DNA of 64,000 nt. It comes from Gammaproteobacteria bacterium (lineage in GTDB: Bacteria > Pseudomonadota > Gammaproteobacteria > SZUA-152). Each line of letters starts with the position of its first letter. Positions within the stretch are counted from its first letter, which is position 1. The DNA lies in NCBI GenBank assembly GCA_011321815.1, contig DROS01000026.1:1-64000 (forward strand), given 5' to 3'. Shown one piece after another: positions 21,731-39,263 of the stretch. The position numbers and the translations under genes are program-made. The notes below the pieces were generated by a model that was given only the letters and a program-made list of their open reading frames with translations, was not told the DNA's origin and did no database searches.

Positions 21731-22513
21731 TTATTTTAATTCCAGATGCAGCATTTTGCCGCCGGTCTCAGCAGCCAGCTTTTGGTAATGCCAGTTGGTT
21801 TCCGGGTTGTCGTGACCGATGGGCAGAGTGTAGACCGGGCTGGGGATATGAAAATAGTGAATGCGATCTGCGGGCGGTTCGTCGCCGATAAGTAAGTAGG
21901 CACCGGGTGCAGGAGCGTGGTCCGCAGCGTAGCGAAAACCATAACCGATGGTCTCGTTGGCGCCGGTGAAAGGGGCGCCCTCCATAAGTCGATCAAACAT
22001 TTCACCCATAGTGCCGCGGTAAGTATCAGCCTTGCCGTCGGAGAACCAAGTGAGTGCGTCAAGTTTTTTGCCCGAGCGAATGACGATGACGCGCAATACT
22101 GGTATGAGAAAATCGCTGACCCCGTGCATGGAGCCGGTGGCGTCGATGAGCAGGTGCAGACTGTTGCCAGGCAGGTCGCGCAGACCTTTGACGAACACGT
22201 CGAAGTCTTTGTGGTTCTTGCCTTTGGCCAGCCCAGCGGCGGCCAGCGCTTTTTCCATTTGTTTTTCTGTAGACAGGCTGGCGAGGGTATTCATATTAGC
22301 CAACAGGCGCTTGCGTTCGGCATTAGATTTGTCCAGTTCGATTTGCAGGTTGGCCAGGGCGCTTTTCAGCCGGGGGGCTTGATATTGCTCCGCCATGCGC
22401 GCGGTAATAAGGATGGTGACCAGTAAAAAAATGAAAGTCGCCAACATCAGCAAGGCAATGTCGGAAAACATTTCGTAGATGTTGGGCGGAGCTGAGCGAC
22501 GTTTTCTGCGCAT
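21731..22513 (-). CDS. Membrane-anchored von Willebrand A domain protein with ExbD/TolR-like helix
   Basis: The 260-residue protein has a short basic cytoplasmic N-terminus, one transmembrane helix (about 17-37) and a coiled coil (about 45-75). From about 115 it has a von Willebrand A domain with a MIDAS-type motif DATGSM (D124, T126, S128). An aspartate, D18, sits at the start of the helix in MFSDIALLMLA. That is where ExbD, TolR and MotB carry the proton-carrying Asp. The gene follows an ExbB/MotA-type gene by 29 bases. I infer a stator-like pair in which the usual periplasmic peptidoglycan-binding or TolR fold is replaced by a metal-dependent ligand-binding domain. The function is unknown. 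Confidence 0.8.
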   Translation of the reverse strand: MRRKRRSAPPNIYEMFSDIALLMLATFIFLLVTILITARMAEQYQAPRLKSALANLQIELDKSNAERKRLLANMNTLASLSTEKQMEKALAAAGLAKGKNHKDFDVFVKGLRDLPGNSLHLLIDATGSMHGVSDFLIPVLRVIVIRSGKKLDALTWFSDGKADTYRGTMGEMFDRLMEGAPFTGANETIGYGFRYAADHAPAPGAYLLIGDEPPADRIHYFHIPSPVYTLPIGHDNPETNWHYQKLAAETGGKMLHLELK

Positions 22514-22542
22514 ATTTTCTACGAAACAATTAGTATGAATGT

Positions 22543-23520
22543 TTATTTTTTATGTTTGTCGCCGAACAGGTAGCCCATTACGCCACGTTCAGCCTGTCTG
22601 AGTTTAATTTCCAGCGCCAGGGTTTTTACGTGAGCTTCGCGCAGGCGTACCATCTCCCGTAATTGGTCGAGCTCTATGTCCTGGCCGGGTTGTTTTACTT
22701 CGGTGGCGAACTCGCGCATTGCCCCCCGGGTATCCGTGAGCAATTTTTGCAGATTGGCAATGTTGCGACTCATTATGCTGATTTCAGCATTGATGAGGTG
22801 CAGGTCGCGCTCCAATGACGGTTTGAGGTCTGACGAGCAGTAGACTAAACAAGTGCGTGTCAGGGCATCTTCCAGGCTTTCCACGCCATTTTCATCGATG
22901 TGTGCGAAAATGCGCAGCAGTACGCCGCCCAACACGGCCCCTAATAGTGTGGTGTAAAATGCAGTGCCCATACCGCCCATGGCGCCCCGCAGCCCCGCCA
23001 GCAATTGTGCCTGATCCTCGCCCAAAGCGTCCAGAGAACTGGTCAGGCCGGTGAGGGTTAACGTAAGGCCAGCGACAGTGCCAATCAGGCCCAGGGTGAT
23101 GAGCAGGTTGCCAATAATTTCCAAGGCGTGGGCAATGCGCTGATAGATGGAAAATTCCACATCCACCAAGGCCTCAATATTAAGCTCGCCATTATTGTTG
23201 ACAATGGTGCGTAACGAGTTGAAAAACTCTGCCACACAACCTTTTTTTTCGGTTTGTTCAATACCCAGCCAGCCATCACGTTTGGCAACATTTTCCAATT
23301 CGTCTACTTTGATGGACTCCAGAGTAAGCAGAATAGTCAGAATAAAGCTGGTGGTTACTCCTAGCGCAAACAGGCCAATGATGGCCCAGGTGATGCGGCT
23401 GGGATCATGTTGTACGAAGGTTAATACCTCCGTATCCTGATACAGCCCCAAGTAAATGACAATAGCTGCCGCAGCCCACACGACCCACAATACCAGGGCC
23501 CGGTATCCTCTCTGTACCAT
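22543..23520 (-). CDS. MotA/TolQ/ExbB-type proton channel family protein
   Basis: The 325-residue protein has four hydrophobic segments (about 8-27, 43-66, 132-157 and 185-205). The last two carry the family's glycine-rich LGLIGTVAGL and GGMGTAFYTTLLG signatures. A long C-terminal cytoplasmic helix follows (about 225-310). ExbB/TolQ/MotA proteins form pentamers around a dimer of the D subunit and use the proton motive force to rotate it. The partner here is the VWA protein encoded next in the operon. Cellular role unknown; there are no Ton, Tol-Pal or flagellar genes nearby. Confidence 0.85.
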   Translation of the reverse strand: MVQRGYRALVLWVVWAAAAIVIYLGLYQDTEVLTFVQHDPSRITWAIIGLFALGVTTSFILTILLTLESIKVDELENVAKRDGWLGIEQTEKKGCVAEFFNSLRTIVNNNGELNIEALVDVEFSIYQRIAHALEIIGNLLITLGLIGTVAGLTLTLTGLTSSLDALGEDQAQLLAGLRGAMGGMGTAFYTTLLGAVLGGVLLRIFAHIDENGVESLEDALTRTCLVYCSSDLKPSLERDLHLINAEISIMSRNIANLQKLLTDTRGAMREFATEVKQPGQDIELDQLREMVRLREAHVKTLALEIKLRQAERGVMGYLFGDKHKK

Positions 23521-23963: not shown

Positions 23964-24187
23964 CAAACTCTTTGGGAAGTGAAGAGGTCTTAGGTGGTTT
24001 TTGTATGAGTTTTTGCTGCGGTGAGCTGTGGACAGATACGCATGCATTGTTGGTGAAGCTTGTTGGAAAAGGCTGAGAGGGTGGTAGGCCAGAGCGGGTC
24101 AGTAATAAATTAAAGGTGTTAAGCCGGGCAAAACAAGAATTAAATTGCTTATTACGAATTAACAATTGGTTGGGAGGGAGTGGTCTT

Positions 24188-24913
24188 ATGCATCTCATAA
24201 CAAAAGTATCAACAGTCGCGACACTGTTTGCCGCATCTGCGGCGTTTGCCTCTGTCGGAAGTCAGGGTAATATCGAAAGCGGTAAGAATATTTACATGAA
24301 TGGCAAGGGTGATGTTCCGGCTTGTAACAGCTGCCATGGCCAGGATGCTATGGGTGATGATGCCCTGGGCACGCCGCGCCTGGCAGGGCAGGGCTACGTT
24401 TTTCTGGTCAAACAGCTGGAAGACTTCGCAACAGACAAGCGCATGGATACCACCATGTTTGTCATGAACACCAATGCCAAAGGCCTGAGCGCCCAGGATC
24501 GTGCCGATGTATCCGCCTATGCTGCCAGCTTAAGTAAAGAGCTGGTGTCATCGGATATGGCGCAGGTGAAAGAGTTAGGCAATCCTGTGGGTGTGCGTCA
24601 CCTGGGCAAGGCTCTCGTTATGTATGGTGCAGCTGATCGTGGTATTGCCTCTTGCTATTCGTGTCACGGGTTTAATGGCCGCGGTGCAGCGCCAGTTTAT
24701 CCCATGATCGGTGGTCAAAAATACGTATATCTGGTCAATCAGCTGAAAAAATGGCGTGATGCCAGTCGCGCCAATGATCCCATGGGTCAGATGCGTGCGA
24801 TTGCGAAAAACATGACGGATGAGGATATCCATAATGCAGCAACGTATCTGACGTCGGCTCCTCGTACGACAATGGGCAACTCTCGTGTGCCAGATGACTA
24901 CCCGCACGACTAA
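24188..24913 (+). CDS. Diheme cytochrome c (c4 / c553 family)
   Basis: A periplasmic electron carrier. The 241-residue precursor has a signal peptide (cleaved near ASA-AFA, residue 21). Two heme-binding sites follow, CNSCH (C46, C49, H50) and CYSCH (C156, C159, H160), in two homologous halves that each contain LAGQ/IGGQ plus YxxxQL segments. This is the cytochrome c4 pattern, and c4 proteins donate electrons to cbb3 oxidases. The start is the ATG at 24188 with GGGAGGGAGT upstream; the longer open frame lacks a signal peptide. It has its own terminator. Confidence 0.93.
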   Translation: MHLITKVSTVATLFAASAAFASVGSQGNIESGKNIYMNGKGDVPACNSCHGQDAMGDDALGTPRLAGQGYVFLVKQLEDFATDKRMDTTMFVMNTNAKGLSAQDRADVSAYAASLSKELVSSDMAQVKELGNPVGVRHLGKALVMYGAADRGIASCYSCHGFNGRGAAPVYPMIGGQKYVYLVNQLKKWRDASRANDPMGQMRAIAKNMTDEDIHNAATYLTSAPRTTMGNSRVPDDYPHD

Positions 24914-24938
24914 GCTGTTGCGTTGATCCATATGTGCT

Positions 24939-24967
24939 AAAAAGGGCGGATTTATTCCGCCCTTTTT
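24939..24967 (+). terminator. Intrinsic terminator after the cytochrome c4 gene
   Basis: AAAAAGGGCGGA, TTTAT and TCCGCCCTTTTT form a perfect stem-loop followed by GTTCTTG. It lies 25 bases after the stop codon. Confidence 0.9.
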
Positions 24968-25184
24968 GTTCTTGTATATTTTTATGACCAATTTTCTTAT
25001 GGTCTGATTTTTCTGGTAGAATCCCGATGTCCTGGTGGTTGTTACTTGCACCTTTAGCGTAAGTGGCCGGGGGACGCGTTTTTTGGAGAATGAAGAGCCT
25101 CAAAGCTGTCTGAGAGAGAAATTTCGCTTGATCGGGTGGTTTGGAAATTACGTTGTATTGTTCGGGTGGCGGTAACCATAAAAT

Positions 25185-25829
25185 ATGTCAAAAGAAAAGC
25201 AATCACTGAAAAGTGGTGAAAAGATTTTGTTTGGGATTGTGGCTGTGTTTATCGGTTTGGCTGTTATCGCTTATGCGGCGCTGGAAACCTACCGCATGTC
25301 ACGTACTGAGCCTTTGTTCGATAACAAAACACACTACAATTTTTCGGAGGCGGGGCATTTGGGTTCCCGTTTATTCCGTGAAGCACGTTGTACAGCCTGT
25401 CATCGTGCATTGCGTAATGGCACCAACATGGGGTTGTCGCTGGACGGTGTTGGTTCGGTGCGGACACTGGATTGGCTGGTTGCCTTTTTGGCTGATCCGG
25501 AGGCGACTTATGGAGCCAAAACGTTTGACCATGGTCCTAAACCTAAAGAAGCTGCTTATGTTGCGCAGATGCCGGAAAAAGACCGGTATGCCATTGCGGT
25601 GTTTATTTCTGAGCTGAAGGCAGAGCAGGGCTCGTCATCAGCAGCAATGCCACCGGAAGGGCGTTCAGCTTTTATCGACAACATGGTGGGTGCTTGGGCG
25701 CCCGCCGAGTGGAAAGAGCGTTTTCAGGATATTCGAACCAAGCAGGCGCCTCAAGGAGCCGCCGCTGGGTCAGCGTCTCAGCCGGCGCCGCAAGAGACAA
25801 GTTCGCCAGAAGCCAAAGTCCAGGAGTAA
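25185..25829 (+). CDS. Membrane-anchored monoheme cytochrome c
   Basis: The 214-residue protein has a cytoplasmic N-terminus, a transmembrane anchor (about 13-33), and a periplasmic cytochrome domain with one heme site CTACH (C69, C72, H73). A likely axial Met lies in AQMPEKD (about 131). A Pro/Ala/Gln-rich tail ends the protein. It shares layout and the GEKIL motif before the anchor with the cytochrome at 32444-32932, and both have LDGxGS-(6)-WL after the heme. I infer paralogues that supply the heme part of a split CcoP. It is followed 5 bases later by a half-CcoN gene. Confidence 0.85.
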   Translation: MSKEKQSLKSGEKILFGIVAVFIGLAVIAYAALETYRMSRTEPLFDNKTHYNFSEAGHLGSRLFREARCTACHRALRNGTNMGLSLDGVGSVRTLDWLVAFLADPEATYGAKTFDHGPKPKEAAYVAQMPEKDRYAIAVFISELKAEQGSSSAAMPPEGRSAFIDNMVGAWAPAEWKERFQDIRTKQAPQGAAAGSASQPAPQETSSPEAKVQE

Positions 25830-25834
25830 TTATC

Positions 25835-26371
25835 GTGAGCAGCAGTCATCAGGAACCGTGGGAGCGGGACACGGAATATACACGTTATACTTTGTGGTTT
25901 GTTTACGCATGCATTATTTACAGCCTTATCGGTTTTTCCTGGGGGGCGCTGATGGGCGGTATTTCTGAATTTCGTCATTTTGTAGATCATCGTTTGCACG
26001 GTGACCTGATTGTGCGTGCGCACACGCACGTCAATTTGCTGGGTTGGGTGGAGATGGCGATTTTTGCTGCAGTGTATTACATTATTCCTCGCTTGGTGAA
26101 ACGTCCCATTTACAGCCTCAGACTGGTGAAGCTACATTTTTGGACGCATAATTTTGGCCTGATTGGTATGGTGGTATTTTTTACAACGGCGGGTGTGTTG
26201 GGTGGTTTGACTGGCGAAACCGGTACGCCCGAGCAGGTTGAGGCCGTGGTAAAGCCCATCTTGGCCACTATGGGGATTTTTGGCACTATAGTGTTGCTGG
26301 CAAATTTTATTTGGGCGTACAACCTGTTCCGCACCTGCGCAGGTTGGGAAAAAAACAGGACTAAAGCATGA
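25835..26371 (+). CDS. Half-length CcoN-like membrane protein
   Basis: This 178-residue protein starts at GTG (GGAG upstream; the longer open frame overlaps the cytochrome gene). About four hydrophobic helices are seen. The segment RAHTHVNLLGW followed by a second helix ending YYIIPRL resembles helix X-XI of cbb3 subunit I. There the two histidines bind the high- and low-spin hemes. A later LHFWTHNFGL resembles the next CcoN helices. The CuB histidines and active-site Tyr are absent, so it cannot be a full oxidase. It may bind one heme b or help assembly. Its stop overlaps the next gene. Confidence 0.75.
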   Translation: MSSSHQEPWERDTEYTRYTLWFVYACIIYSLIGFSWGALMGGISEFRHFVDHRLHGDLIVRAHTHVNLLGWVEMAIFAAVYYIIPRLVKRPIYSLRLVKLHFWTHNFGLIGMVVFFTTAGVLGGLTGETGTPEQVEAVVKPILATMGIFGTIVLLANFIWAYNLFRTCAGWEKNRTKA

Positions 26372-26874
26372 AGATATGGCGGTATTTGAGTGTTTTTTTG
26401 ATGGTGACGCTTCTGTCTGGCTGTCTTTTGTTTGATGATGGCAGCTACAAGGTTGGCATGACCGTGCCGAGCTTGCGCACCAAAACATTGGCTGATGTTG
26501 GTGGTGACCTGAGCCGTATCACCAGTTATCGTTACCCCGATAAGCGTATGTACCAGTATTCGCTTGATGACGCCCTGGCCAAGGGGCAGGTGATGGTGCT
26601 GGCTTTTGCCACGCCGGGGCATTGCACACAATGTGACAAGCACCTGCAAATGCTCAAGGGTATAATGGACAAGTATGAGGATAAAGTGCTGTTTTTGCAC
26701 ATGGATCAATACCAGAACCCTGAGGCCTTTAATGCACTTACGGTGATTGGTGATCCGTGGACTTATATTATTGATGGTAAAAACACCATACGTTTGAGGC
26801 GTGCCGGGCGCATGCTTTACCGCGAAGTGGATGCTGTGCTTGCCAGTTTGCTAAAAGAAGAGAAGGCGAGCTAA
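26368..26874 (+). CDS. Thioredoxin-like lipoprotein with CTQC site
   Basis: The 168-residue protein has a lipoprotein signal (LLSGC, lipidated C19) and a thioredoxin-like fold with a CTQC motif (C86-C89) after the strand VMVLAFATPGH. A DPWTYIIDG segment sits where the cis-Pro region is expected. Periplasmic lipid-anchored thioredoxin-like proteins beside oxidases often act in copper delivery (SCO type) or heme-site thiol reduction (CcmG type). The motif is CxxC, but I did not find the distal SCO histidine. Its start overlaps the half-CcoN stop by 4 bases. Confidence 0.75.
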   Translation: MKIWRYLSVFLMVTLLSGCLLFDDGSYKVGMTVPSLRTKTLADVGGDLSRITSYRYPDKRMYQYSLDDALAKGQVMVLAFATPGHCTQCDKHLQMLKGIMDKYEDKVLFLHMDQYQNPEAFNALTVIGDPWTYIIDGKNTIRLRRAGRMLYREVDAVLASLLKEEKAS

Positions 26875-26879
26875 CGGAC

Positions 26880-27332
26880 GTGGCGAAATCTGAGATGTTT
26901 GAGTTGTCACAAGACCGTAAAGGTGTGACTTGGGATGTGTTGATGTATGTGCCCACCGTGGTAGGGTTAGGCATTGGTGCGTTGATGTTTTGGTACGATA
27001 AAAACCAAGGGTTGGCTTACCTGTTGTTTTTTCTGGCCTGTTTCTTCCTTTTTCAAGGGGTGCATCGTATTCTTGGACGTATGCTGGTGCTTCCTCAATC
27101 CCCTGTTTCATTGGATGTATCCAGGCAGCGGGTATCACTGGCGTTACGCAATGGTGAAGTCGTTGAGCTGGTTAAAAACGTACGCTATTTTTCAGATCAT
27201 GCGGGCAAGTCGTTTGGTCTCACCGGCATGGATATGATGGGCTCCAAACGTCAGTATGTTTTTCATAAAGGCCAGTTTGCTGATGTCGTTGCTTTTGGCA
27301 GGGTGGCGGATGCGCTAAAAGTGTTTGCTTAA
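26880..27332 (+). CDS. Two-helix membrane protein of unknown function
   Basis: A 150-residue protein starting at GTG (5 bases after the previous stop). It has an N-terminal cytoplasmic stretch and two hydrophobic helices (about 20-38 and 45-62). A soluble C-terminal domain of about 85 residues is beta-rich and contains SVSLDVSRQRVSLALRNGE. I do not recognise the family. Its place directly after the thioredoxin-like lipoprotein indicates cotranscription with the cytochrome and half-CcoN genes. Confidence 0.7.
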   Translation: MAKSEMFELSQDRKGVTWDVLMYVPTVVGLGIGALMFWYDKNQGLAYLLFFLACFFLFQGVHRILGRMLVLPQSPVSLDVSRQRVSLALRNGEVVELVKNVRYFSDHAGKSFGLTGMDMMGSKRQYVFHKGQFADVVAFGRVADALKVFA

Positions 27333-27351
27333 CCCGCTCGCGAGGTTTGCG

Positions 27352-27546
27352 TTAACGTTGTCTGCGCCGCCGGACAATGTCCCACCCCATGAATGTCAGT
27401 ATGGCCACGCCAATCAGGCAGGCACCTGCGATGATCCATTGTTCGGTTGTTTTCGAAACCAGTCCTCCAATCAGCATGTGTATGGAATAGCCGAGAATAA
27501 AGATAGAGCTGACAGCCACGGAAATGAGGATGATTATTTCTTTCAT
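27352..27546 (-). CDS. Small two-helix membrane protein
   Basis: A 64-codon frame on the - strand, convergent with the preceding operon. The product MKEIIILISVAVSS... has two hydrophobic helices separated by GGLVSKTTEQW and a basic tail RRRRQR, a regular two-helix hairpin. No strong ribosome-binding site is seen. I call it at moderate confidence because the pattern of charges and helices looks protein-like; no family recognised. Confidence 0.5.
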   Translation of the reverse strand: MKEIIILISVAVSSIFILGYSIHMLIGGLVSKTTEQWIIAGACLIGVAILTFMGWDIVRRRRQR

Positions 27547-27936
27547 TTGAGTATGGTTTTTTTAGAGCAGATCTGTGTCGAGGCGGGTAGCTTAACAGAA
27601 AACACAGGACGCACAGAAACTTAGATTTTCATACCGATTGTCTCGGGTATTCGTTTGATTTATCTATGAAATTGTCAAAATTTTGTCAGGGGTTAAAAGC
27701 CGTTCTGTTTTTCCCTGTGGAGGCTTGACCCTTGCTATGACATGTGACACTCTCTTTCGTCATGATTCTCCGGGTTATTATGCGGGCGAATGTTAGGGAG
27801 GGGGGACTTCCCAAAAAAAATTAGGTCATAGAGCACGGGGTGACATGGACAAATGGCAACATTTTATCGTGTCCTGCGGTCTCCGCCAGACCCTAATAAA
27901 ACAAAATGTAATGTTGGTTATTTCAGGAGGTGAGGG
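27547..27936. other. Upstream region of the CcoN-CcoO operon
   Basis: About 390 bases with no supportable gene. It should contain the promoter of the oxidase operon. I see a GGACGCACAG fragment near 27610 like the repeat unit downstream of secA, a partial FNR half-site TTGATTTATC at about 27656, and GGTCA-N11-TGACA at about 27822-27846, none strong enough to call. The ribosome-binding site CAGGAGGTGAGGG is just before 27937. Confidence 0.5.
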
Positions 27937-28194
27937 ATGAAAAATCCACTAATGCTTTCTCTTGTTGGGGGAATGCTAACTGGGATGGGTAACGGCAGTG
28001 TGTTTGGTGCCGCGCTCATGTGCTTTCTTGGCCGTGGTCAGTTTAGTGACTGGGGAGGATGGGGCAGTCAGGCATATGATCCCAGCACTTTCACGGGATT
28101 TATTGACTGGGCGATGATTGTATTCGGTATTGCCTTTTTCATTATCCTCAAGGTTGCGGTTGGCCGCCATTTAGAGATTGAAGCCAAGGCGTAG
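27937..28194 (+). CDS. Small two-helix membrane protein at the head of the oxidase operon
   Basis: The 85-residue protein has two hydrophobic segments (about 6-31 and 55-75). They are joined by a Gly/Trp-rich loop (QFSDWGGWGSQ), and the tail is charged. The ribosome-binding site AGGAGGTGAGGG is very strong. It precedes the microprotein and CcoN-like gene on the same strand. I do not recognise the family; an accessory subunit of the oxidase is the likely role from context. Confidence 0.75.
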   Translation: MKNPLMLSLVGGMLTGMGNGSVFGAALMCFLGRGQFSDWGGWGSQAYDPSTFTGFIDWAMIVFGIAFFIILKVAVGRHLEIEAKA

Positions 28195-28251
28195 TCAGTC
28201 TTGTTTCTATTTTGATAATTCTTGATTTAATAAATTTAGGGAGGAGTTGAC

Positions 28252-28341
28252 ATGGCTACCTTTGCGGGAATGATGGGGATTTTGTTAGCACTGAGTTTTA
28301 TGTGGTTCAGCTGGTTTTTGCTGATGCCTCGTAGCAAGTAA
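28252..28341 (+). CDS. 29-residue single-helix microprotein upstream of ccoN-like gene
   Basis: GGGAGGAGTTGAC precedes an ATG opening a 29-codon frame. The peptide begins MATFAGMMGILLAL, is hydrophobic and aromatic (FMWFSWFLL), and ends MPRSK. It lies 57 bases after the previous stop and 35 bases before the CcoN-like start. The strong ribosome-binding site and positive C-terminus support a real membrane microprotein. Confidence 0.65.
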   Translation: MATFAGMMGILLALSFMWFSWFLLMPRSK

Positions 28342-28376
28342 ATAGTTGATTCAGAAAATAACCTGGGAGGGTAAAG

Positions 28377-29783
28377 ATGTTTAAATACCTATTTGCGAAA
28401 GCGGAAGATATCCCGGCTGGGTCAGCCGCGATTTACTTCGGCTATTCGTCGATTATTTGGTTTGTAATTGGAACTGGTTTGGGTTCCTTTAATGCCGCCA
28501 AGCTCGCATTTCCGGACTTTGTCACGGGCAGCGAGATTTTGTCGTTTGGGCATATGCGTCAAGTTCACGTTCTGGCTGTTATCCTTGGCTGGATATCCAT
28601 GGCCTTCGCCATGGCAATGATGTACATCACACCGGCGTTGGGTAACACCAAGCTCTGGTCTGAGAAGCTGGGCGTCTGGAACTGTTTTATCTGGAATATT
28701 GGACTGTCTCTGGGACTGTTCCTGTTATGGCTGGGCGTAAGTTCAGGTCGTGAATATTCCGATATGCCGTTTTTCATTGACGTAGTGGTTATTCTGGGTA
28801 TTTTGACACCACTGTGTGTTAACGTGTTCATGACGATCAAAACTCGTCGTACACAGGGTATCTACACCACCAACTGGTTTTTTGGTGCCGCCACTTTCAT
28901 GGTCATCATCGTGTTTTCTGTGGGCAACTCACCTGAGTTCTTTCAGTTGACAGGTCTGACTGAGGCATACCTGACATGGTGGTTCGCTCACAATGTGTTA
29001 GGTCTGTGGATTACCCCGGTTGCTGCGGCTATTTCGTACTACGTTGTGCCAAAAGTAACGGGCAATCCATTGTACTCGCACCGTATTGGCCACTTGCACT
29101 TCTGGTCGGTTGTGGTGTTTTATTCAACGCCGGCTGCTCATCACCTGATGTCTGCTCCTCTGCCAGAATGGCTGAAGTCTTTTGCCTCGGTGGAAGGTGT
29201 GCTGATTCTGGTGCCAGCCATCGCCTTCGTGTCGAACTTGCTGCTCACTATGACAGGCAAGTGGCGCATGTTTGTGGAAAATATTGAGATCAAATTCACC
29301 ATTACAGGTGTGTTGATGGCGATTCCGCTAAACATGCAGGGTGGTTTCCAGCAGACTCGTGCAATTAACTGGTACATTCATGGTACTGGCTGGATTGTTG
29401 CCCATGCTCATCTGGCGTTGTTGGGCTTTTCCACTTTCCTGGAAGCCGCTGCCGTATACTATGGCTTGCAGACACTGTTGCGTCGTAAACTGTACTCATT
29501 AGGCTTGGCCAACTTCCATTTCTGGATGTTGCTGGTTGGTTTTACCACCTACTGGGTATCTATGACTATCGCTGGTTTGATTCAGGGCGCAGGTAAAATC
29601 TACGAAGTGCCTTACATCGATGTCGTGATTGCTGAACATCCTTACATGATTGCACGTTGGGTGGGTGGCACCATGGTGTTCCTCGGAAACTGCGTATGGC
29701 TGTACAACATGTATATGACTGCTCGTGTCGGTACTGCGATCCCAGCGGGACGCCTGCCACATGAACTGGCCTACGAACGTTAA
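28377..29783 (+). CDS. ccoN: Divergent cbb3-type (C-family) heme-copper oxidase subunit I
   Basis: Catalytic subunit for reduction of O2 (or NO). The 468-residue protein has about 12 hydrophobic helices. Ligands seen by comparison with cbb3 CcoN are: low-spin heme H64 (RQVHVLA) and H345; CuB H205 (FAHNV), H255 and H256 (AAHHLM); high-spin heme H343 (AHAHLA). The C-family cross-linked Tyr sits six residues before the HH pair, as Y249. The Glu that cbb3 enzymes carry 22 residues before the b3 His is Gln here (Q321). NorB-type glutamates are not evident. It lies in an operon with the CcoO-like cytochrome. The symbol denotes the family only, since the protein is clearly divergent. Confidence 0.88.
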   Translation: MFKYLFAKAEDIPAGSAAIYFGYSSIIWFVIGTGLGSFNAAKLAFPDFVTGSEILSFGHMRQVHVLAVILGWISMAFAMAMMYITPALGNTKLWSEKLGVWNCFIWNIGLSLGLFLLWLGVSSGREYSDMPFFIDVVVILGILTPLCVNVFMTIKTRRTQGIYTTNWFFGAATFMVIIVFSVGNSPEFFQLTGLTEAYLTWWFAHNVLGLWITPVAAAISYYVVPKVTGNPLYSHRIGHLHFWSVVVFYSTPAAHHLMSAPLPEWLKSFASVEGVLILVPAIAFVSNLLLTMTGKWRMFVENIEIKFTITGVLMAIPLNMQGGFQQTRAINWYIHGTGWIVAHAHLALLGFSTFLEAAAVYYGLQTLLRRKLYSLGLANFHFWMLLVGFTTYWVSMTIAGLIQGAGKIYEVPYIDVVIAEHPYMIARWVGGTMVFLGNCVWLYNMYMTARVGTAIPAGRLPHELAYER

Positions 29784-29809
29784 TAGAATAATAAGGGGAG
29801 GTAATTACC

Positions 29810-30760
29810 GTGGCTTTTAGAGAATATAAAATCGGTTCCCGAATGTTCGGTTTGGCGTTCGGTACATCGATGTTCATTACTTTGTATATGCCGGCAGTGG
29901 ATATTCAGAATGTATCCGCAACGTCTATTGCAATGGATCGTCAATTGTCCTTTGGCCGGGTAGGTGGCTTCAGTTATGAAGACCCTTTCCTGCAAGGGTG
30001 GGCAAAACCTATTACGGTGCAGATAAACCAGGACCCGAAGACGGGGGCTACTATTGAGTCGACACGTGCTTTTGTGTACGAAAAAGGTGTGCCGTTTCCC
30101 AATGGTATTCGTCATCCGCGGATTCTTGGCAAAGTGCCGGCTGCTGCGAGCGAATCAAAAGGGCGGATTAATGAGGCATCTGAAGATCAGGGTGCCGTGT
30201 TTATCGTCCGGGAAGAAGTTGATGGTGGCGTGATGGTCCCGTACATCGAAAATGCGACGGCGACTCGTGGTTGGTTGCCCAGCGCAACGCTGGCAAAGGC
30301 AAGTGAGTCACAGCGACTGCATGTGGGTAAAGGCAAAATCATGTTCGTTCGTGAAGGCTGCTGGTGGTGTCATACCTTACTGCCTGAGCAGACTCAGGAT
30401 TGGCAGTATTTTGGCGCACCGCCTATGCTGGGCGACTTTAATGGTGAATCACCAACGGCGTTTGGTTCTGATCGTAAGGCGCCTGACTTGACTCATGTGG
30501 GGTCTCGCAACTCTTCACGCGAATGGATGATGATGCACTTTTTTAATCCTCGTCTGGTTCAGTCGCATTCCATCATGCCTCGTTATGACTATTTGTGGGG
30601 TGAAAAGGACGCAAACGGCAATACTATCGACTATGATGGTTGGCGTGCGGCCTATACAGCGTATGCTGACGGAAAGTCAATTTATCCACCTGAAGTCCCT
30701 GTACCGGCTGCTGATAGTGAAGCCCGTGCATTGATTGACTTCGTTCTGAATCTGAAATAA
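29810..30760 (+). CDS. ccoO: CcoO-like membrane-anchored cytochrome c, enlarged
   Basis: A monoheme electron-transfer subunit. Translation starts at GTG with AGGGGAGGT upstream. The 316-residue protein has one N-terminal helix (about 11-30), a heme site CWWCH (C184, C187, H188) and an axial Met in SIMPRYDYLW (M256), which matches the CcoO pattern of MPxYxWL. DPFLQGW and KAPDLTHVGSR segments are also CcoO-like. Between anchor and heme there are about 150 residues, more than in usual CcoO (total near 200-240). It lies 26 bases after the CcoN-like gene. Confidence 0.88.
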   Translation: MAFREYKIGSRMFGLAFGTSMFITLYMPAVDIQNVSATSIAMDRQLSFGRVGGFSYEDPFLQGWAKPITVQINQDPKTGATIESTRAFVYEKGVPFPNGIRHPRILGKVPAAASESKGRINEASEDQGAVFIVREEVDGGVMVPYIENATATRGWLPSATLAKASESQRLHVGKGKIMFVREGCWWCHTLLPEQTQDWQYFGAPPMLGDFNGESPTAFGSDRKAPDLTHVGSRNSSREWMMMHFFNPRLVQSHSIMPRYDYLWGEKDANGNTIDYDGWRAAYTAYADGKSIYPPEVPVPAADSEARALIDFVLNLK

Positions 30761-37860: not shown

Positions 37861-37934
37861 TTTAATCGGCTATATCATCTGTTTTGAAGGGCGTGCGCAA
37901 TGAATAAACAGGTTTACAGTGGTAGTATGTGGCT

Positions 37935-39263
37935 ATGAGCGGTAACGATACCTTGAGTAAAATCCCCATCAGAGTAGAAGCTGCCAATGCCGGTGTCAGC
38001 TTTCACTGGCGTCGTCGGTTGGCGCAATTTTTGTTCATTGCCATTGCCGTGATTATTCCGGTGAGTGGATTGCTGCGTATTGATTTGGTGGCAGGTGCCT
38101 TTGTGGTGCTGGGGCATCAAATTTGGTGGGCCGACTTTTTTCTGATTTTTGGTTTATGGATGCTGCTGGCCAGCGGCATGGTGATGTTGTACTCCACGGT
38201 GGGCACAGCTTTCTGTGGTTGGGCTTGCCCACAAAACACCTTGTCAGAGATAGCCAATGAATGGACTTACCGTCTGCTTGGCAAACGTGCGGACATGAGT
38301 GTTTCCGGCGCAAAAATGAAAGTGGCCGACAGTAAAAACCGCCTGTTGAATTGGACGTTATTGGGGGCGATTTTACTGGCCATGTCCATGTTGCTGGCGT
38401 TGATCCCCCTGCTTTATTTTTATCCGCCAGACGTCATCTGGTCTTTTATGACTTTCCGGGATGATGAGCGTCTGGCGAGTTCATTGCATTATATTTACGC
38501 CGTTTTTGTGATACTTGTTTTGGTCGATGTGAGTGTCATTCGTCATTTCTGGTGTCGCTTTATGTGCGTTTACCGTGTGTGGCAACATGGCTTCAAAACC
38601 AAGCAGACATTGAAAATTGCCTATGACGATACACGCTCTTCCCAGTGTGAAAAGTGCAATTATTGCAGTACCGCATGTTTTATCGGGCTTGACCCGCGCA
38701 ACACGGACATGTACGACAGCTGTATTAATTGTGGTGAATGTATTGATGCCTGTGCTCAGCTACAAGGCAAAAAAGGTGAAACAGGTTTGCTGTCTTTTGA
38801 AAGGGGCGCATCGGGAAAATCATCCGCTTTACGCAATCTGGCCTCGATCTCCTTACGTGTGCGCTGGACTCTGCCATTTTCTGCACTAGGTTTGGGGATG
38901 TTTATTTGGGGGTTGTTAACGTATAACGGATATCATTTGGCGGTTTATCGTGCCGACCAACAATTTGGCTCAGTGATTCGTGACTATCGCATTGCCGTTT
39001 CCAACAAACTGTATCGTCCTGCAGAGGCCACGTTACGTATTGAAGGTTTACCAGAAAACAGCTATTCGATACCGGAAAAAGTACTGCGTTTTGATAGTGC
39101 CGGGCGGATTGATGTAAATCTGCGCATTGAGCCCAATGTGCCACCTGGTTTGCATATGTTTTTGGTGCATGTGGATACAGCGGATGGCTGGCATAGTGTT
39201 TTTCGTGTACAACATTTTGTGGCGGAAAATGTTGCGCCCGAAGTAGAAAATAGCGCTTTTTGA
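37935..39263 (+). CDS. ccoG: CcoG/FixG-type polyferredoxin membrane protein
   Basis: CcoG reduces copper for cbb3 oxidase assembly. The 442-residue protein has membrane helices near 30-50, 65-85, 138-160, 190-210 and 300-320. It carries the FCGWACPQ motif (93-100) characteristic of CcoG/RdxA, and two 4Fe-4S cysteine clusters (CEKCNYCSTAC and CINCGECIDAC) around residues 236-275. A C-terminal periplasmic Ig-like domain follows. I use the ATG at 37935 over the GTG two codons earlier. In standard loci CcoG is followed by CcoH and CcoI; neither is seen here. Confidence 0.92.
   Translation: MSGNDTLSKIPIRVEAANAGVSFHWRRRLAQFLFIAIAVIIPVSGLLRIDLVAGAFVVLGHQIWWADFFLIFGLWMLLASGMVMLYSTVGTAFCGWACPQNTLSEIANEWTYRLLGKRADMSVSGAKMKVADSKNRLLNWTLLGAILLAMSMLLALIPLLYFYPPDVIWSFMTFRDDERLASSLHYIYAVFVILVLVDVSVIRHFWCRFMCVYRVWQHGFKTKQTLKIAYDDTRSSQCEKCNYCSTACFIGLDPRNTDMYDSCINCGECIDACAQLQGKKGETGLLSFERGASGKSSALRNLASISLRVRWTLPFSALGLGMFIWGLLTYNGYHLAVYRADQQFGSVIRDYRIAVSNKLYRPAEATLRIEGLPENSYSIPEKVLRFDSAGRIDVNLRIEPNVPPGLHMFLVHVDTADGWHSVFRVQHFVAENVAPEVENSAF

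Follow-up and report, generated by a model that had tools for sequence, protein, structure and literature searches.

A channel protein and a von Willebrand A-domain protein encoded side by side form a putative ion-driven motor that co-occurs with a small lipoprotein

The minus strand of the 64,000-nucleotide stretch of gammaproteobacterial DNA analysed here (the window; contig DROS01000026.1) carries an open reading frame for a 325-amino-acid (aa) channel protein (22543-23520), followed 29 bases on by one for a 260-aa protein with a von Willebrand A (VWA) domain (21731-22513). We refer to the two products as the A and B subunits. A preliminary description of this DNA had placed a channel gene and a single-helix VWA gene here, and both are confirmed, each on the minus strand. 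The identification of the A subunit as a MotA/TolQ/ExbB-type channel draws on the reading frame, Pfam, alignments, hydropathy, AlphaFold2 and Foldseek, and that of the B subunit as a pore-helix and VWA protein on the reading frame, alignments, AlphaFold2 and Foldseek.

The A subunit matches the Pfam family MotA_ExbB with 30.6 bits, above the curated cut-off of 22.9, which bears out its earlier description as an ExbB/TolQ/MotA-type channel. Hydropathy and an AlphaFold2 model place four membrane helices at about residues 5-28, 43-70, 129-159 and 184-208, and the model adds a C-terminal helical tail of some 90 residues (about 229-318). The closest solved folds found by Foldseek are ZorA (rank 1), ExbB and PomA; a sequence search of solved structures gave weak MotA matches, and profile searches of the same structures returned mostly coiled-coil chance matches. 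The pore-lining threonines expected on helices 3 and 4 of the MotA/TolQ/ExbB family are present. T148 on the third helix (codon 23077-23079, minus strand) lies in a GLIGTVxG motif, which corresponds in alignments to GTVMG in solved MotA proteins, T191 on the fourth (22948-22950, minus strand) lies in FYTTLLG, and both are threonine in 59 of 59 relatives; position 186 is variable, with threonine in 31 of the 59.

In the AlphaFold2 model of the B subunit (62-row alignment; mean pLDDT 77.5, the VWA part mostly 80-92), a basic N terminus leads into a hydrophobic helix from D18, a long helix ending near residue 78, then two short helices and, from about residue 118, an alternating alpha/beta domain. 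D18 (codon 22460-22462, minus strand), the proposed proton-carrying residue of the pore helix, aligns with the pore-helix Asp of Escherichia coli MotB, ExbD and TolR and is Asp in 61 of 62 relatives; a single N-terminal helix with a proton-site Asp is the arrangement of the MotB/TolR/ExbD family. Pfam MotB_plug is matched weakly by 43 of the 62 proteins (best E value 9e-4). The preliminary description had assigned D18 to the ExbD/TolR/MotB proton site and had made its reading depend on conservation of this residue and on a helix topology not opposite to that of ExbD. The assignment stands, and no sign of the opposite topology appeared: 53 of 62 proteins have an N terminus of more basic character than the segment following the helix, which fits an N-in, VWA-out orientation as in ExbD, judged from charge and homology only. 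The sole exception at position 18 has Ala and comes from a draft assembly (L047:1492-2277) in which the pair is still present and whose genus relatives retain Asp; a sequence error and a dead motor are alternative explanations that we suggest for it.

Searches of Pfam, NCBIfam and PADLOC gave no usable match for the B subunit of the window, so that the VWA assignment required a comparison of folds. Nor did a sequence search of solved structures match it; the Pfam VWA model did not reach its cut-off with the window protein and matches few relatives, weakly, and Pfam found neither an OmpA nor an ExbD domain, the VWA fold standing in their place. The best Foldseek matches of the model are von Willebrand factor A2, the VWA domain of NorD (second-best), TFIIH p34/p44 and CMG2 (best E value 7e-5, probability 1.00), which confirms a VWA fold in the predicted model. 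VWA_CoxE is matched weakly by three relatives (best E value 8e-4) and VWA_4, also weakly, by a few; with the MotB_plug matches, the VWA_CoxE matches give each module of the B subunit some independent sequence support. The metal site begins with D124-A-T-G-S128. D124 (codon 22142-22144, minus strand) and S128 are invariant in 62 of 62 proteins and position 126 carries T in 55 and S in 7, leaving D124-x-T/S-x-S128 unbroken throughout. T188 (21950-21952, minus strand; T in 59, N in 2, S in 1) and D211 (21881-21883, minus strand; D in 62 of 62) are the proposed second- and third-loop residues, which by their spacing would complete the site; E212 is also invariant. The four positions D124, S128, T188 and D211 would together provide the DxSxS, T and D elements of a VWA metal site. 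The earlier proposal of a VWA domain with a DATGS metal site is thus supported by the predicted fold and by a complete-looking, strongly conserved site. Conservation of the metal-site residues and of D18 was a check that the same description had called for.

The pairing of the two genes extends well beyond the window. In all 41 neighbourhoods examined, a channel gene on the same strand precedes the VWA gene by about 0.9-1.1 kb, which argues that their adjacency is not due to chance, and 48 of the 53 pairs measured have intergenic gaps between -8 and +48 bases. The search across genomes and neighbours that had been proposed for the pair thus found the two genes adjacent wherever a locus had sufficient flanking sequence. 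There is one VWA gene per channel gene in the neighbourhoods read, and no tolR, exbD or motB gene was noticed in the neighbourhood maps read. No constant neighbour beyond the pair was found, and no other gene adjoins it in most loci. Sequence distances of the A and B subunits correlate (r = 0.84 over 54 pairs), much of which is expected from common ancestry alone. The VWA protein occurs in 11 of 12 genomes of its own genus and in 34 of 369 sampled genomes of its own class (about 9%). Elsewhere in a phylum sample of 399 genomes it is restricted to three families (f207, f227 and f240), all of one second class, in which the pair occurs in 44 of 78 genomes and is present more than once in some; one of these genomes has two near-identical copies about 92 kb apart (G481:C3:1294312 and G481:C3:1386042) and two copies of the lipoprotein described below. 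The named close relatives of the VWA protein are from uncultured Gammaproteobacteria, and in the plasmid collection searched neither the pair nor the two-VWA locus described below had any relative.

Two kinds of VWA protein have been linked to motors of this type (PMC12204202, Mol Biol Evol 2025, section 8, Fig. 4c-d). The first are transducers encoded next to tolQR-like genes. The second, termed TPH-vWA, have a TolR/ExbD-like pore helix with a conserved Asp and are encoded beside tolQ-like genes without tolR or exbD; they were modelled inside the pentamer, where rotation was proposed, their function was left open, and they are "predominantly found in heterologous pairs", not universally (PMC12204202; reference organism, Idiomarina). 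The statement in the preliminary description that known members end in TolR/ExbD or OmpA-like domains therefore does not hold, since that paper already describes VWA proteins whose pore helix is TolR-like. The pair described here has the adjacent tolQ-like gene, the pore-helix Asp and the threonine ring of TPH-vWA motors, and no tolR or exbD was noticed beside it; the predominant form with two heterologous VWA genes was not seen, the neighbourhoods read containing one VWA gene. One locus in our own-class sample (L132, genome G048) encodes a 264-aa channel without the tail together with a 335-aa and a 349-aa VWA protein, and is probably of the published type. Its channel is related to the A subunit (BLASTP E value 8e-14) and its pore helix is related as well (E value 1e-5), the strongest matches in a phylum search with this locus are the one-VWA pair family, and a tree of A subunits groups the two at 84/95, a value that we use with caution given long branches and 89 columns. 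From the channel similarity, the phylum matches and the tree grouping, the one-VWA family looks like a sister of the published two-VWA type. A lipoprotein-like gene (172-912, 'ILFASCATQ') precedes the motor genes of the two-VWA locus (L132:172-5473). Our literature search found no other paper on the one-VWA family. A motor with a VWA output has thus already been described in general; the compact one-VWA form and its link to a lipoprotein look new.

Weak channel matches in other genomes were considered as members of the pair and rejected, as they turned out to belong to other motor types. One of these types combines a 227-252-aa channel with a pore-helix protein of about 200 aa ('DPFTDLLFN...'), whose C-terminal domain has no Pfam match and which is often followed by a membrane protein of about 172 aa (L133:2868-4243, L134, L140, L141, L142, L179 and L181-L185). 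Another, seen in both classes, has a channel gene followed by one whose product ('SFTDIMTV...') combines a pore helix and a long coiled coil (L138:2462-4968 and L148-L151). At a further locus (L144:2078-4704), a MotA-like gene lies between genes that by eye resemble FHA-domain and phosphatase genes, suggesting a phospho-signalling motor.

The gene for a small lipoprotein of about 145 aa adjoins the pair, on one strand or the other, in several lineages, and usually lies elsewhere. The window holds no such gene; the copy of the same genome lies on another contig (G000:C40:48170-48577). A profile (A5) run over 158 own-class genomes gave strong matches (E value below 1e-13) in 13 genomes; two further matches, near 1e-5 and with partial profile coverage, were left out of the count. 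On this basis the lipoprotein is present in 12 of 13 pair-carrying genomes versus 1 of 145 others (Fisher 5e-16), with membership of this sample partly inferred (G000, G013 and G024-G179, 13 of which were counted as pair carriers). In the second class, a wider profile (A6), which includes one second-class sequence (L125) and is not wholly independent of the first test, found the lipoprotein in 41 of 44 genomes with the pair versus 4 of 34 without (Fisher 6e-14); like the first, this value treats genomes as independent though they are not. Among second-class genomes at least 90% complete the counts are 24 of 24 versus 2 of 18, and within one genus (g353) they are 14 of 14 versus 2 of 9. By genus, which is a fairer view than genome counts, 13 genera of the second class have both pair and lipoprotein and 5 have neither. 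Completeness is 67-86% in the three second-class genomes, all drafts, that have the pair and no lipoprotein; of the four with the lipoprotein and no pair, one has a stop codon in the gene. In that fragmented assembly (L203; G496:C232:9590-9997) the stop is in frame and the pair was not found, as if the pair had been lost first and the gene were now degrading. Of 26 lipoproteins examined, 25 have the lipobox Cys; Asp directly follows it in only two, and under the E. coli sorting rule this suggests an outer-membrane location. No acidic residue is strictly invariant; the best conserved is E117 (22 E and 2 D of 26). We regard the lipoprotein as probably an outer-membrane partner of the pair. Common descent may account for part of its co-occurrence, which nevertheless raises the likelihood that the VWA motor has a ligand in the periplasm or outer membrane.

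Taken together, we think it fairly probable that the pair is a 5:2 ion-driven motor of the MotAB/ExbBD/TolQR type whose VWA dimer engages this lipoprotein; earlier, independent models of such an architecture (PMC12204202) speak for the motor. By analogy with the family of the A and B subunits, from which we infer stoichiometry and rotation, five channel copies would probably surround the helices of two VWA proteins, and protons passing D18 and the threonine rings would turn or cycle these two helices. In the model, the long rigid helix (about residues 13-78) would carry the VWA pair into the periplasm, by its estimated length roughly to the height of the peptidoglycan. The VWA metal site would there bind a partner, most likely the lipoprotein, as its co-occurrence and adjacency suggest, and the motor would grip, tension or release that outer-membrane protein; a single B protein would do the work that is split between TolR and TolA or between ExbD and TonB. 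Homodimerization, proton coupling, metal binding and lipoprotein contact are thus predicted properties, and the VWA output could perform the energised, metal-dependent binding or pulling imagined in the preliminary description. A more complete picture, which we offer tentatively and consider possible rather than probable, is a three-part machine spanning the envelope, in which a proton-driven pentamer turns the VWA dimer and the metal site catches and releases the outer-membrane lipoprotein without transducers of the TonB/TolA type.

Divergently from the pair, the plus strand of the window carries a cbb3-like oxidase cluster (24116-30760) that is kept beside the pair in its own genus and in several other families. 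It comprises two cytochrome c genes and a gene for a thioredoxin-like protein, a gene (25694-26371) for a short CcoN-like protein whose match to CcoN is confined to the C-terminal third, a full CcoN (28377-29783) and a CcoO-like gene (29810-30760); a CcoG-like gene lies further along the window (37929-39263).

Several other readings of the pair were weighed. The link to the lipoprotein might reflect shared ancestry only, the motor with its VWA output having another partner such as peptidoglycan or a different envelope protein. Pair and lipoprotein do both follow genera in the second class, where they were counted without a control gene; concordance within a single genus, the recurrence of the pattern in two separate classes and the repeated adjacency on different strands make this account somewhat unlikely. 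The VWA domain might instead handle a cbb3-type or NO-reductase-like complex from the periplasm, as a proton-driven counterpart of NorQ-NorD in the maturation or repair of respiratory oxidases. The pair stands back to back with a cbb3-like cluster in its own genus and at five further loci (L092, L093, L094, L102 and L109), CcoG-like genes lie beside it in both its own class (L106 and L107) and the second (L119, L120, L123 and L126), and NorD supplies the second-best fold match. Against this, such genes are missing from the stretch covered at most loci, the loci were counted without an enrichment control and the lipoprotein co-occurs far better with the pair; we consider the oxidase device very unlikely, while the oxidase genes found nearby in some lineages leave room for a respiratory role.

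Two further readings concern the mode of action. A ligand of the VWA domain could open or shut a gated proton channel and the signal could pass to the cytoplasm through the A-subunit tail (about 229-318), as has been proposed for Zorya but here without its effectors. Such a device would accord with the helical tail and with ZorA being among the best matches (PADLOC E value 1e-6; first in Foldseek), yet PADLOC gives ZorA-like similarity only and nothing for the B subunit, the tail is far shorter than that of ZorA and no nuclease or helicase was recognised beside the pair. Moreover, presence in 11 of 12 own-genus genomes and absence from the plasmids searched are unlike a patchy defence gene, and we judge the sensor improbable. 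A Zorya defence system proper was rejected, the long ZorA tail, the peptidoglycan-binding domain of ZorB and ZorC/D or ZorE all being missing. Finally, VWA transducers beside tolQR-like genes are on record (PMC12204202, the first of the two kinds), and the B helix might likewise dock outside a separate TolQR or ExbBD motor in the manner of TonB or TolA. In the alignment, however, the pore Asp is present on this helix and an SHLS/His motif is missing from it, the dedicated channel gene is always adjacent, and neither tolQR nor a tolR/exbD-like gene was noticed beside it in the neighbourhoods, which leaves a transducer scarcely credible. The 5:2 motor with a VWA output that engages the lipoprotein is the reading that we retain.

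To our knowledge, few of the outputs of ion-driven 5:2 motors have an established function. A motor with a single B protein and a metal-dependent grip, kept across two bacterial classes, would offer a simple system in which to study how proton flow becomes force on the envelope. The lipoprotein would turn the question of what VWA motors act on, left open in 2025 (PMC12204202), into a concrete binding and deletion test.

Among known systems, the pair shares with the MotA-MotB and PomA-PomB stators a four-helix A subunit and a pore Asp on B, but its B subunit has no OmpA-like peptidoglycan-binding domain and it lies outside flagellar loci. With ExbB-ExbD and TolQ-TolR it has the channel family and the pore Asp in common, and it differs in its four A helices, in a VWA domain that replaces the ExbD/TolR fold and in that no TonB/TolA partner was seen. 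ZorA-ZorB of Zorya resembles it in the helical tail of the A subunit and in fold and PADLOC similarity, whereas the pair has a short tail, a VWA domain in place of the periplasmic domain of ZorB, no ZorC/D/E genes and conservation within its genus. NorD and CoxE have a VWA fold with a metal site and operate with a MoxR-type ATPase, whereas the VWA domain here is joined to a proton channel. The closest likeness in architecture, a VWA protein with pore helix and Asp beside a tolQ-like gene, with a threonine ring and without tolR/exbD, is to the TPH-vWA motors (PMC12204202). These mostly have two different VWA genes per channel, whereas the pair has one, implying a homodimer and setting it apart by the published description; it further combines a channel bearing a C-terminal helical tail with a co-occurring lipoprotein, the latter unmentioned in that paper.
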